From [Clostridium] hylemonae DSM 15053 (GTDB lineage Bacteria; Bacillota; Clostridia; Lachnospirales; Lachnospiraceae): DNA of 64,000 nucleotides. The stretch covers positions 3,038,001 through 3,102,000 of the forward strand of contig NZ_CP036524.1 in NCBI RefSeq assembly GCF_008281175.1, given 5' to 3'. This document shows, piece after piece, positions 39,110-47,552 of the stretch. Each line of letters starts with the position of its first letter. Positions within the stretch are counted from its first letter, which is position 1. A model generated the notes under the pieces. The model was not told the DNA's origin. It was given only the letters and a program-made list of their open reading frames with translations, and ran no database searches. A program made the position numbers and the translations under genes.

Positions 39110-39390
39110 CGGGGTATAAAAATCACCCCTTACCAGCATGTAAAGGGCGAAATAAAATCCGCGGTACCACCTTCATTATATAGAAGAAACAACTTCCATA
39201 TATCTCATCATATTCTTTAACGGGAACGACTCCGGGGTGGCCTACTCATCTTTCAGCCATCCGGCTCCAAAGCTACCTTCCGCCACTCCTTCTTGAAACC
39301 ACCTTCCAGCCTGTGAATGGTTCTCTCTTGCAAGGGCAGTGCCGTACTCTTCTTCTTCAACGCCTTTATCTTCATAAACTAATGAATATC
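39110..39390 (-). ncRNA. T-box riboswitch controlling valS
   Basis: On the minus strand the conserved T-box AGGTGGTACCGCGGA is at 39158-39172 (complement), followed by an intrinsic terminator (CCCTTTAC / GTAAGGGG stem at about 39127-39148, then TGATTTTT). Upstream, GAAGAAGAAGAGTAC and CAAGAGAGAACC are typical stem I elements. Uncharged tRNA-Val should pair with the T-box and allow valS transcription. I could not place the specifier codon with certainty; it should be a Val codon. Confidence 0.92.
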
Positions 39391-40169: not shown

Positions 40170-40961
40170 TGCTGTATTTTGGCTTTCATAGGGAGGCCTT
40201 GCAAGGACATAATACTACTTGATTGTGAACTGTGCAGCAACTTACAAGTGCAATATACATACACTAATCTGCCCACCTTTATATAGTGCGATGATGTAAC
40301 CTCCGTCACCCCAAGTTATGCAGTTTACTTATAGGTGTCCATGTCCCCACTTCAAAATCTAATTTATCTTTTAAAATCTTTCCCTGCCGCGCATCCAGCG
40401 CATAGCCCTCTTCCGTCGTCTCAAGGTTGTTCGCGATATTTACCGGACCGGACGGTCCCTGATCTCCTTTATCTCCCTTTGGTCCCTGGATTCCCTGCGG
40501 ACCCTGTGGGCCAGCTGCGCCGGTATCTCCCTTGTCACCTTTTGGTCCTTGTACGCCGGATGCTCCCGGGTCGCCTTTTGGTCCTGTCGCGCCGGTTGGT
40601 CCCTGCGGTCCGGCAGCACCGGTATCACCTTTGGTCCAGTTGCCCCTGCGGACCTGTCGCACCTGTCGGCCCTTGAGGCCCTGTCAGTCCCTGTGGGCCG
40701 GTCAGTCCCTGAGGACCTGTGGCCGGTCGCGCCCTGAGGGCCCATCGGACCAGCCTCTCCTCTGTCACCCTTATCGCCTTTCGGACCCGTTGCCGATACA
40801 CCTGAGTCGGTGTCACCAATGTACCAATTGCCGCTGGCACCGATATGCGGTGTGATACCGTCGTCACCTCTTGCTTTGACCCCTGTATCATAATTGTTAA
40901 TAAACCAGTTGCCATTTTCACCAATATAAATTTCCGGTATAAAGCTTGTGTTTTCTTCCAT
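40170..40961 (-). CDS. Collagen-like (Gly-X-Y) phage-tail-fibre-type protein, frameshifted
   Basis: The start [19 protein letters not shown] follows GGGAGGAACAAAAGA. Two short repeats ([35 protein letters not shown]) lead into about 40 or more Gly-X-Y triplets such as [19 protein letters not shown], spread over three frames. After them comes [19 protein letters not shown], a segment common in tail-fibre and structural proteins of prophages in this bacterial group. This suggests a phage or tail-derived fibre. The frame breaks lie within the repeats, where indels are also biologically plausible. The C-terminal limit is uncertain. Confidence 0.65.
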
Positions 40962-41147
40962 TCTTTTGTTCCTCCCTTTGATTTGATAACTGTATCTTAT
41001 CAATATCTTGTGGGACAAATAGGGACATGCCGATAGTTTTTCAGTTCGTTCATCACGGACACAAGACCGGAAGAATATTTACCGCCTGCAGAGCTGCTTC
41101 TGCATTGATACATTCCTTATCCGCTGCCTCCTTTTTCCATACAGACT

Positions 41148-43571: not shown

Positions 43572-43600
43572 TTGAGTAAATTTATTCATTATGCTATACT
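43572..43600 (+). promoter_or_regulatory. Promoter of the hydEGF operon
   Basis: TTGAGT (43572-43577), 17 bases, TATACT (43595-43600), close to the sigma-A consensus. Transcription should start near 43607, leaving a leader of about 140 nt before hydE. Confidence 0.75.
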
Positions 43601-43606
43601 TTCTTT

Positions 43607-43717
43607 AAACGTACTAATCACAAAGGAACATCCTGAGTGAAAAGGCGCACGGAAAGTTCAACAAATAAAGGGGATACTATACCCTTATGGAAATCTGCGC
43701 CGCCTGGCGCAGATTTT
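43607..43717 (+). ncRNA. Structured leader with terminator upstream of hydE (candidate riboswitch or attenuator)
   Basis: Between the promoter and hydE: TCAC (43618-43621) can pair with GTGA (43637-43640), and GAAC in that loop (43626-43629) with GTTC at 43656-43659, a possible pseudoknot. A second hairpin around AAGGGG...CCCTT follows (43668-43686). A perfect 10-bp stem AATCTGCGCC / GGCGCAGATT (43692-43715) with T4 looks like an intrinsic terminator. I compared it by eye with common riboswitch classes and found no match. It could equally be a short independent RNA. Confidence 0.45.
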
Positions 43718-43748
43718 AATTCATACATAATTCTTCCGGAGGTGATAT

Positions 43749-44784
43749 ATGAAAGAGCTCATTGATAAACTGAAGGAAAACCGGACATTATCAAAACGGG
43801 AATGGGTGGCGCTGATCGAAGGGCGTTCTCCTGCCCTGGCTGATTATCTGTATGATGCGGCACGCAGTGTGCGGCACAGGTATTACGGGCATGACGTGTA
43901 TGTCCGGGGACTGATCGAATTTACAAATTATTGCAGAAACGACTGTCTTTACTGCGGCATACGAAAAGTAACTCTAATGTGTCCCGTTACCGTCTGACAG
44001 AGGAACAGATACTATCATGCTGCGATACAGGCTACCAATTAGGATTCCGTACATTTGTGCTCCAGGGCGGAGAAGACGGCTGTTACGACGACTCCCGGCT
44101 GGGCAGTATCATATCTGACATAAAACACGCTGGCCGGACTGCGCACTCACGCTGTCCATCGGCGAACGAAGCTATGACAGCTATCAGTATCTCTACGATG
44201 CAGGCGCGGACCGTTATCTCCTTCGGCACGAGACGTTTAATGCCGGGCATTATGCAAGACTCCATCCGCCACTGCTGAAAGCAGAAGTTCGCCAGGAATG
44301 CCTCTGGAACCTGAAAAAGATTGGCTATCAGGTGGGAACCGGCTTTATGGTAGGCTCCCTTACCAGACCGCAGAACACCTCGCAGAAGATATGCTTTTAT
44401 AAAGAAACTGGATCCGCAGATGATCGGTATCGGCCCTTTTATCTCACACCATGACACTCCATTTGCCGGACACCCTTCCGGCACACTGGAACTTACGTTA
44501 TTTATGCTTGGCCTTCTGAGGCTTATGATACCAAAGGTGCTGCTTCCGGCCACCCCGCCCTCGGAACGATCCACCCAAAGGGGCGGGAACTCGGTATTCT
44601 GGCCGGTGCAAATGTCGTGATGCCGAATCTTTCGCCAACCACGGTCCGAAAAGATTATGCGCTCTATGACAATAAAATCTGTACCGGGGATGAGGCCGCA
44701 GAATGCAGGAACTGTCTGGAACGCCGGATGGAATCTATCGGATATCACGTAGTTACCGCACGTGGTGACTCACTGAATATATAA
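43749..44784 (+). CDS. hydE: [FeFe]-hydrogenase maturase HydE (radical SAM), frameshifted
   Basis: About 345 aa over several frames. MKELIDKLKENRTLSKREW leads to the radical SAM cluster motif CRNDCLYCG (about residues 63-71). After a frame change comes YRLTEEQILSCCDTGYQLGFRTFVLQGGED, typical of HydE, then LTLSIGERSYDSYQYLYDAGADRYLLRHET-type sequence, MIGIGPFISHHDTPF and a C-terminus ending VTARGDSLNI. HydE takes part in building the H-cluster subcluster. TTCCGGAGGTGATAT precedes the ATG. It is the first gene of hydE-hydG-hydF. Breaks are near 43965, 44135, 44285, 44385 and 44510. Confidence 0.9.
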
Positions 44785-44820
44785 ACCAAAAATATCATAA
44801 AATTATGGAGGAAATGTACT

Positions 44821-46240
44821 ATGTATGATGTCAATTCTAAACACGCGGACGACTTTATCAATCATGACGAGATTCAGGCAACTCTCGATTATGCAGACGA
44901 GAACAAAAACAATCTGGAATTAATCGAATCACTCATTGAAAAGGCAAAACTGCAGAAAGGGCTTACTCACCGGGAAGCTTCTGTTCTGCTCGCCTGTGAA
45001 GACGCGGATATGAATGAAAAGATATTCCGTCTGGCTGAACAGATCAAAAAGATTTTTACGGAAACCGTATCGTTCTCTTTGCCCCGCTTTATCTCTCCAA
45101 CTACTGTATTAACGGATGTACATACTGCCCTTACCACATGAAGAACAAACATATTGCCCGCAAGAAACTGTCCCAGGATGAGATCCGCAAAGAAGTCATC
45201 GCCCTCCAGGACATGGGACATAAGCGCCTTGCCCTTGAAGCAGGAGAAGACCCGGTACATAACACGATGGAGTATTATCTGGACTGTATTAACACGATTT
45301 ACAGCATCAAACATAAAATGGGGCGATCCGGAGAGTAAACATCAATATTGCCGCGACTACGGTGGACAATTACCGGCTGTTAAAAGAGGCCGGAATTGGC
45401 ACGTATATTCTCTTCCAGGAGACTTATCACAAAGAGAGTTACCTGCAGCTGCATCCTACGGGACCAAAGCACGATTATAACTATCACACAGAGGCAATGG
45501 ACCGGGCGATGGAAGGCGGCATTGATGACGTAGGTGTCGGTGTACTGTTCGGACTTGACAAGTTCCGCTATGAATTTGCAGGCCTGCTCATGCATGCTGA
45601 GCATCTGGAAGCTGCATTTGGTGTGGGACCTCATACCATCAGCGTACCCCGCCTGAGAAACGCAGACGATATTGACGCCGATTCATTTACAAACGGAATT
45701 GATGACGATACCTTTGCCAAAATCGTTGCATGTATCCGTATCGCAGTACCATACACCGGCATGATCATATCTACACGTGAAAGCCAGAAAACGCGGGAGC
45801 GGGTACTGCATCTCGGGATATCTCAGATCAGCGGCGGCTCACGGACAAGTGTGGGCGGTTACTGCGAGCCGGAGCCGGAAGATGAAAAATCAGAACAATT
45901 TGACGTCATAGACAACCGTACGTTGGATGAAGTCGTACGCTGGCTTATGGAAATGGATTACCTTCCAAGCTTCTGTACTGCCTGTTACCGGGAAGGCCGC
46001 ACCGGCGACCGGTTCATGTCACTGTGCAAGAGCGGGCAGATACAAAACTGCTGCCATCCGAACGCCCTGATGACACTGGAAGAATATCTCATGGATTATG
46101 CATCCCCTGAGACAAAGGCAATTGGAGATAAATTGATAGATAAAGAAGTATTAAATGTACCAAACGAGAAAGCACGGCAAGTTGTGCTCGAAAATCTTCG
46201 CCTCATCCGCGAAAACAACCGGCGGGATTTCCGGTTCTAA
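44821..46240 (+). CDS. hydG: [FeFe]-hydrogenase maturase HydG (tyrosine lyase, radical SAM), frameshifted
   Basis: Pieces give 473 aa, the normal length. NYCINGCTYCPYHMKN carries the CxxxCxxC radical SAM motif; KKLSQDEIRKEVIALQDMGHKRLALEAGEDP follows; the last 290 residues are in one frame (TYHKESYLQLHPTGPKHDYNYH, GGIDDVGVGVLFGLDKFRYE, QISGGSRTSVGGY, then SFCTACYREGRTGDRFM with the second C-terminal cluster cysteines). HydG cleaves tyrosine to supply CO and cyanide for the H-cluster. GGAGGAAATGTACT precedes the ATG. Breaks lie near 45060 and 45330. Confidence 0.92.
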
Positions 46241-46244
46241 CTCT

Positions 46245-46318
46245 AATTGGGGACGGGGTTTTCTAGAAAACCTCCGTCCCCAATTAAAATATCCCTGTCC
46301 CTTTTCAATTTACCATGT
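46245..46318. repeat. REP-like element, copy 6
   Basis: A palindrome at 46245-46285 (arm AATTGGGGACGGGGTTTTCT, one mismatch pair) is followed by ATCCCTGTCCCTTTT and ACCATGTCCCTG, the outlying motifs. It lies between hydG and hydF, within the operon, directly after the hydG stop. Confidence 0.85.
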
Positions 46319-46340
46319 CCCTGACGGAAAGGAATCATAT

Positions 46341-47552
46341 ATGAGCTTAAACAGCACCCCTTCTTCCGAACGCATCCATATTGGTATCTTCGGAAAACGC
46401 AACGCAGGTAAATCAAGTGTTATCAATGCCCTTACGGGTCAGGATCTGGCCATTGTATCTGACATAAAAGGTACTACCACAGACCCTGTATTAAAGGCAA
46501 TGGAACTTCTTCCCCTCGGCCCGGTCGTCATGATAGATACTCCAGGGCTCGACGATGAAGGCGAACTGGGAACCCTCCGAGTTCAAAAGGCTTATCAGAT
46601 ACTAAACAAAACAGATATTGCCGTGCTTGTAGTAGACGGAACTGTCGGTATGACAGAGGCAGATCATGCTATTTTAAAACGGATCAAAGAAAAAAGCTGC
46701 CTTCTGTCGTCGTACTCAACAAGGCAGATATTGCCGTTCCCGACAGGTACAAGGACGCTGCATCGCTTGGACTTGCGCCGGACGATTATTTTATGTGGGT
46801 GAGCGCATCAGATAACAGCAATATATACGAATTGAAAGAGTTGATCGCAAGACTCGTGCCTGCTGATGATCCCAAATCCAAGATCGTCGGCGGCCTTATC
46901 AGGCCTTCTGACTTTATAATTCTCGTTGTGCCTATAGACAAGGCCGCTCCAAAGGGACGTCTCATACTGCCCCAGCAGCAGACAATACGCGATATATTGG
47001 AAGCCGATGCAGCTGCGATCGTTATTAAAGAAAACGAATTGTCCAATACACTCATGACTCTCGGCAAAAAACCGGCAATGGTCATTACTGACAGTCAGGT
47101 ATTTGACAAAGTATCCAAAGAGACACCAGCCGATATACCACTTACCTCATTCTCAATCCTGTTTGCAAGATATAAGGGTAATTTAAGTACAGTAGTTGAC
47201 GGTGCAAGGACTTTGGAATGTCTGAAAGACGGAGATACGGTTCTCATCGCAGAGGGTGCACACATCACAGACAGTGCGACGATATCGGTACCGTAAAGCT
47301 TCCCCGGCTGATTCAAAATATACAGGTAAACAAATAAACTTTGAATTTACGAGCGGCACAGAATTTCCACTTGACTTATCCACATACAACCTGATCATCC
47401 ACTGCGGAGGCTGCACTTTGAATGAACGTGAAATGAAATATCGTCTGAAATGTGCTGAAGACGCCGGGATACCGATCACGAATTACGGCATAGCGATTGC
47501 GCAGATGAACGGAATTCTGGAACGAAGCATAGAACTATTTCCTGAATTTTGA
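46341..47552 (+). CDS. hydF: [FeFe]-hydrogenase maturation GTPase HydF, frameshifted
   Basis: 404 codons in total. The N-terminal GTPase has the P-loop GIFGKRNAGKSS, switch segment KGTTTDPV and DTPGLDDEGE; the middle has SKIVGGLIRPSDFIILVVPIDKAAPKGRLILPQQQ; the C-terminal cluster domain has HCGGCTLNEREMKYR (HxxxC/CGGC motif) and GIPITNYGIAIAQMNGIL. HydF is the scaffold that receives the cluster and delivers it to HydA. ACGGAAAGGAATCATAT precedes the ATG. Breaks lie near 46700 and 47270. No hydA gene is in the window. Confidence 0.92.

Follow-up and report, generated by a model that had tools for sequence, protein, structure and literature searches.

The leader in front of the [FeFe]-hydrogenase maturation genes hydE, hydG and hydF of [Clostridium] hylemonae DSM 15053 probably represents a hitherto undescribed family of attenuators that act on transcription in cis and are most likely riboswitches. 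This strongly conserved RNA family appears to control genes that make, or apparently import, the metal cofactor of [FeFe]-hydrogenases in many gut-type bacteria. The leader would be an orphan riboswitch, probably an off-switch, which senses something in the H-cluster supply route. Positions given below refer to the analyzed stretch of 64,000 nucleotides (the window) unless marked as genome positions.

Organization of the leader and the hyd operon

The initial annotation had described a promoter, a structured leader, a second hairpin, a 10-bp terminator followed by T4 and a Shine-Dalgarno sequence of hydE, and all of these elements were recovered in the sequence or the predicted fold (Table 1). 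Based on the promoter position, transcription is expected to start at approximately position 43607. A TATAAT-like box precedes the core at the same place in nearly all relatives, and hairpins resembling the second hairpin occur in several of them. The predicted fold of the leader had a free energy of −41.2 kcal/mol compared with −26.7 ± 3.5 kcal/mol for shuffled sequences (z = −4.2, 0/200). The switching strand, which is common to P1 and the antiterminator, had not been singled out in the initial annotation.

Table 1 Features of the hydE leader and the hyd operon in the window
Feature	Position	Strand	Description
Sigma-70-type promoter	43572-43600	+	−35 TTGAGT (43572-43577), 17-nt spacer with TG extension, −10 TATACT (43595-43600); from sequence
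Conserved core hairpin P1/P2/P3	43610-43647	+	Anti-antiterminator / putative aptamer; 68-locus alignment A4
P1	43610-43615 with 43643-43647	+	43613 is a bulged, variable base
Internal loop P1-P2	43616-43617/43641-43642	+	
P2	43618-43621 with 43637-43640	+	
Internal loop P2-P3	43622-43623/43635-43636	+	
P3	43624-43626 with 43632-43634	+	Variable loop 43627-43631
Switching strand AGGCGCACGGA	43643-43653	+	Pairs within P1 as its 3' strand or, with 43694-43705, as the 5' strand of the predicted antiterminator
Second hairpin AAGGG/CCCTT	43668-43684	+	From the fold; enclosed by the antiterminator
Intrinsic terminator	43692-43717	+	10-bp stem AATCTGCGCC/GGCGCAGATT, perfect arms 43692-43701/43706-43715, loop GCCT, T4 at 43714-43717; from sequence
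Shine-Dalgarno sequence GGAGGTG of hydE	43738-43744	+	From sequence
hydE	43749-44800 (end approximate)	+	ATG at 43749; frameshifted in this assembly; HydE pieces at genome 3081758-3082769
hydG	44821-46240	+	Frameshifted in this assembly
hydF	46300-47552 (start approximate)	+	Frameshifted in this assembly

In this assembly, hydE, hydG and hydF (43749-47552) and one hydrogenase gene (genome 3129365-3130216) are each split over several frames, and hydE is intact in congeners. The broken frames of these genes look like assembly indels rather than decay. Elsewhere in the window, a collagen-like G-x-y repeat protein is also split over frames (40306-41018, minus strand), and a T-box leader is located at 39140-39369 on the minus strand (Rfam RF00230, 116 bits).

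Covariation in the core hairpin

The core is a 38-nt hairpin, which in 68 distinct loci has the consensus P1 CGUnCU/AGGCG, an internal loop, P2, a second internal loop RA/GM, P3 AGG/CCU and a variable loop. Both internal loops are conserved and purine-rich. P2 consists of three base pairs of free sequence (CG/UA/UG/GC; AU/GC/CG/GU/UA; CG/UG/AU/GC/UA), and its fourth pair, U-A, is often C.A; P3 shows exchanges of AU to GC and of GC to AU. In alignment A4 of the 68 loci, 95.7% of the cells were paired. Changes on both sides of a pair affected 59 cells compared with 12.9 ± 2.7 after shuffling (0/500), indicating strong covariation of P2 and P3, although the underlying alignment model has the same P2 and P3 and leans towards them. 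Every slid register scored far lower than the chosen one, and a first MAFFT alignment of 28 sequences revealed the same covariation. As the initial annotation had proposed, leaders upstream of hydE in relatives were aligned, and their structure was found to be kept with compensatory changes. Judged by these alignments, the core is under selection at the RNA level.

P1 is nearly invariant and shows a single compensatory change (C-G to U-A, locus L064). The assignment of P1 is based on near-complete pairing, this one change, the freely varying bulge and the predicted mutual exclusion with the antiterminator, broad covariation being absent. Another P1 register, G-U-n-C with G-n-A-C, was dropped in favor of CGUnCU/AGGCG, in which the pairing is better and the variable base is bulged out. 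A pseudoknot between a GAAC loop and GTTC, which had been suggested for the leader, was abandoned as well, because the sequence and length of the apical loop vary freely in relatives, including the congeners that keep GTTC. A short UUCGA-like motif is often found 3' of the core in Lachnospiraceae (ACAGATTCGA; region of 43656-43660 in the window).

The variation in P2 bears on leader-peptide or translation-coupled attenuation, in which AAAGG...GUGAAAAGGCG would represent the ribosome-binding site and the first codons of a short peptide (VKRR...). Many relatives, like the window, indeed have a GTG plausibly spaced behind AAAGG, and its reading frame encodes VKRRT. However, this GTG lies in P2, whose 3' strand becomes GUA, GCA, GGG, GUC, CGG or UGG with compensating changes on the 5' side. 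The start codon is lost while the P2 pairing is kept, which refutes a leader peptide as the general mechanism, and no conserved short ORF with a start codon was found. We regard this explanation as exceedingly improbable.

Distribution of the RNA family

A search of the leader against Rfam 15 yielded no match at the gathering score and, up to an E-value of 10, only unrelated families at chance level. Divergent family members had no Rfam match either, so that the class, which the initial annotation had not recognized, is still an unrecognized one.

When 195 relatives were searched at the DNA level, the core was detected ahead of hydE in three congeners and in another genus, ahead of a TM1266-family gene with hydE behind it, and ahead of an SsuABC-like transporter. 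Extibacter muris and Dorea sp. D27 are among the element-bearing congeners. From 84,980 species, a pattern scan retrieved 16 stretches, each of which carried a Lachnospiraceae genus, Clostridia or Bacillota in its title. Covariance models found the element in 45 of 397 genomes of the family sample (38 genera), in 14 of the 392 genomes sampled from the order (including L041, judged false) and in 8 of 391 genomes of the class sample, some of these by chance. Loci L041, L047 and L048, which are without hyd context, were judged to be chance matches of the covariance models, and L008 was a chance match to a terminator. In total, 68 distinct loci of the RNA family were found, which belong to Lachnospiraceae and other Clostridia. 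A single copy is present in the window genome, where the next best match had E = 4.8. Searches of the open-access literature retrieved neither a description of a comparable element nor one of H-cluster supply through an importer, and the RNA family with its H-cluster regulon is apparently undescribed.

Target genes

The sequence and covariance-model searches were blind to gene context. The genes behind the element were metabolically related. The first downstream gene was hydE at 26 of the 68 loci, TM1266 followed by hydE or hydG at 23, and an SsuABC-like importer at 16 (nine directly, seven after TM1266). One locus each had hydF, a contig end, and a gene for a binding protein (SBP) followed by a HydE-like radical SAM protein (142.7 bits, HydE cut-off 254.6) and a nitrilase-family protein. 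Going by these sequence assignments, every classifiable target concerns the H-cluster, the linked importer included. A link to H-cluster metabolism, offered as speculation in the initial annotation, is now backed by searches that arrived at such targets independently of context.

One genome with zero H-cluster-domain matches, G900, has the element twice (L087/L156, G900:C7; L092/L157, G900:C4), the contexts being a binding protein with a HydE-like radical SAM protein and a nitrilase, and a fused permease-ATPase. Operons of hydE and hydF without hydG between or beside them were observed at L063 (G864), L068 (G1020) and L159 (G135:C7), and HydG was not found in these three genomes.

A predicted three-state attenuator

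A terminator-like hairpin follows the core at 65 of the 68 loci. The P1 3' strand, together with the bases that follow it, is complementary to the 5' arm of this hairpin, as in the window (AGGCGC.CGGA with UCUG.G.CGCCU), at L035 (GGCGAAG/CUUUGCC) and at L015 and L031 (AAGGCG..CAG/CUG.CGCCUU). The computed duplex of the switching strand with the terminator 5' arm had a mean energy of −11.3 kcal/mol versus −5.6 kcal/mol for the 3' arm, and matched partners paired more stably than permuted ones (−11.3 versus −10.6 kcal/mol, p = 0.005). When the RNA was folded up to the terminator loop, the antiterminator had a probability above 0.5 at 53 of 65 loci and P1 at 2 of 65, whereas in full-length folds with the whole terminator the terminator exceeded 0.5 at 56 of 65 loci and P1 at 30 of 65; at about a dozen loci the predicted antiterminator was weak or the terminator call took another hairpin. 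In these computations, the expression platform is mutually exclusive with the core, and P1, antiterminator and terminator are modeled as a three-state attenuator. If P1 is stabilized in time, termination should result and the operon should be off, a direction taken from the computed thermodynamics of the fold states before and after the terminator 3' arm.

According to the proposed mechanism, the sensor would be the P1-P2-P3 hairpin with its two internal loops. The 3' strand of P1 (AAGGCG and following bases) could alternatively pair with the terminator 5' arm to form the antiterminator. Without ligand, the nascent RNA would form this antiterminator before the terminator 3' arm exists, leading to read-through into hydE-hydG-hydF. 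A ligand bound at the internal loops would stabilize P1, free the terminator and switch the operon off; we infer both this direction and the direct binding of a small molecule.

Terminators without a sensor can exist in 5' leaders, and the element might be an ordinary constitutive terminator or mRNA leader that senses nothing. This is very unlikely, because the core is conserved across 38 Lachnospiraceae genera in the 397-genome sample and in other families, and because it precedes genes of related function and its alternative pairing is conserved as well.

Riboswitch or protein-dependent attenuator

That a riboswitch or attenuator of an unrecognized class precedes the hyd maturation genes, as the initial annotation had suggested, is supported by the covariation among relatives and the lack of an Rfam family. 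A PyrR-type mechanism would instead require a regulatory protein, for example the TM1266-family "iron-only hydrogenase system regulator", to bind and stabilize the core hairpin as an anti-antiterminator. Protein binding would fit the architecture of the core, which is one hairpin with a variable apical loop and two symmetric internal loops of purines. Moreover, TM1266 was present in 18 of 18 element-bearing genomes tested and is often the first controlled gene, as in autoregulation. However, this co-occurrence is not specific because TM1266 was also detected in a control genome outside the RNA's group (Thermotoga maritima), and the approximately 20 core positions that were invariant in the first 28 sequences exceed the needs of many protein sites. 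We consider protein-dependent attenuation plausible in principle but rather unlikely, and a riboswitch the likely reading. The putative ligand of such a riboswitch most likely arises in H-cluster supply, as a product or an intermediate, given that one RNA controls both the maturases and an importer that occurs mostly where HydG is missing.

HydG-less genomes and the co-regulated importer

HydG, HydF, HydE and the H-cluster domain were looked for in 17 genomes, most of which have importer targets. HydE and HydF without HydG over the cut-off were found in G051 and in five genomes that all belong to one genus of another family. HydE, HydF and HydG were all absent over the cut-off in G022, G887, G995, G997, G1015, G1040 and G066, the absence being weakest for G1040 and G066 (completeness 59% and 89%, respectively); two to six H-cluster-domain matches were obtained in each of these genomes. 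By this profile search, six or seven genomes have [FeFe]-hydrogenases yet no recognizable HydE, HydF or HydG. The H-cluster motifs L2 and L3 are preserved in representative hydrogenases of G022, G887, G995, G997, G1015 and G1040, and L1 could be matched in each of them apart from G887. Both HydEFG and the importer are present in G036 and G1054.

In most importer loci read, a hydrogenase-domain gene was located close by, often divergently. Within the family sample, HydG was lacking in 9 of 11 importer-type genomes versus 3 of 34 other element-bearing genomes (Fisher p = 1.2e-5), an association that is partly expected because a maturase-less genome cannot have maturases as targets, and that concerns gene content and not the imported substrate. 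A sequence search of two importer binding proteins against solved structures matched taurine, sulphonate, formylaminopyrimidine and "nitrate" binding proteins and was uninformative on the substrate.

HydG makes Fe(CO)2(CN)Cys, and the three maturases have all been described as essential (PMC6212873), against which the maturase-less genomes stand out. Living E. coli and Synechocystis given synthetic [2Fe]adt matured the enzyme (PMC6984386). Based on this published chemistry and in vivo maturation, salvage of a precursor is conceivable. The RNA might then sense an organometallic building block of the H-cluster, such as the [2Fe] unit or the HydG product Fe(CO)2(CN)Cys, while uptake of such a precursor from other cells might be the role of the SsuABC-like importer, enabling HydG-less and even HydEFG-less bacteria to mature [FeFe]-hydrogenases; this scenario is speculative, and we hold it to be doubtful. 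The family exposes [FeFe]-hydrogenase genomes without recognizable maturases but with a co-regulated importer, often near hydrogenase genes, and turns the external acquisition of cofactor or precursor into a directly testable question. The switch class, which is apparently undescribed and has a narrow, legible regulon, also gives access to the way in which bacteria sense H-cluster supply, a subject absent from the literature searched.

Comparison with known systems

Like transcription-terminating riboswitches of the Firmicutes, the element is a 5' leader with a covarying aptamer-like core, a P1 strand common to the antiterminator, a downstream intrinsic terminator and metabolically coherent targets. 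It differs from known riboswitch classes by the absence of Rfam matches at gathering or relaxed thresholds and by its single short hairpin as putative aptamer, and its targets, H-cluster maturases and a linked importer, have not been reported for any riboswitch class in the literature searched. With PyrR-type attenuation of pyr operons it has in common the anti-antiterminator/antiterminator/terminator logic and a conserved hairpin, but there is no match to an Rfam leader family, the targets are unrelated, and a hairpin-binding protein would be a candidate such as TM1266. The ribonucleic antiterminator (RAT) of LicT/SacY is also a short hairpin with two internal loops that adjoins a terminator. 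The RAT overlaps the terminator itself, and its stabilization leads to read-through; in the element described here, in contrast, the 3' strand of the core is common to the antiterminator, and stabilization of the core would free the terminator.
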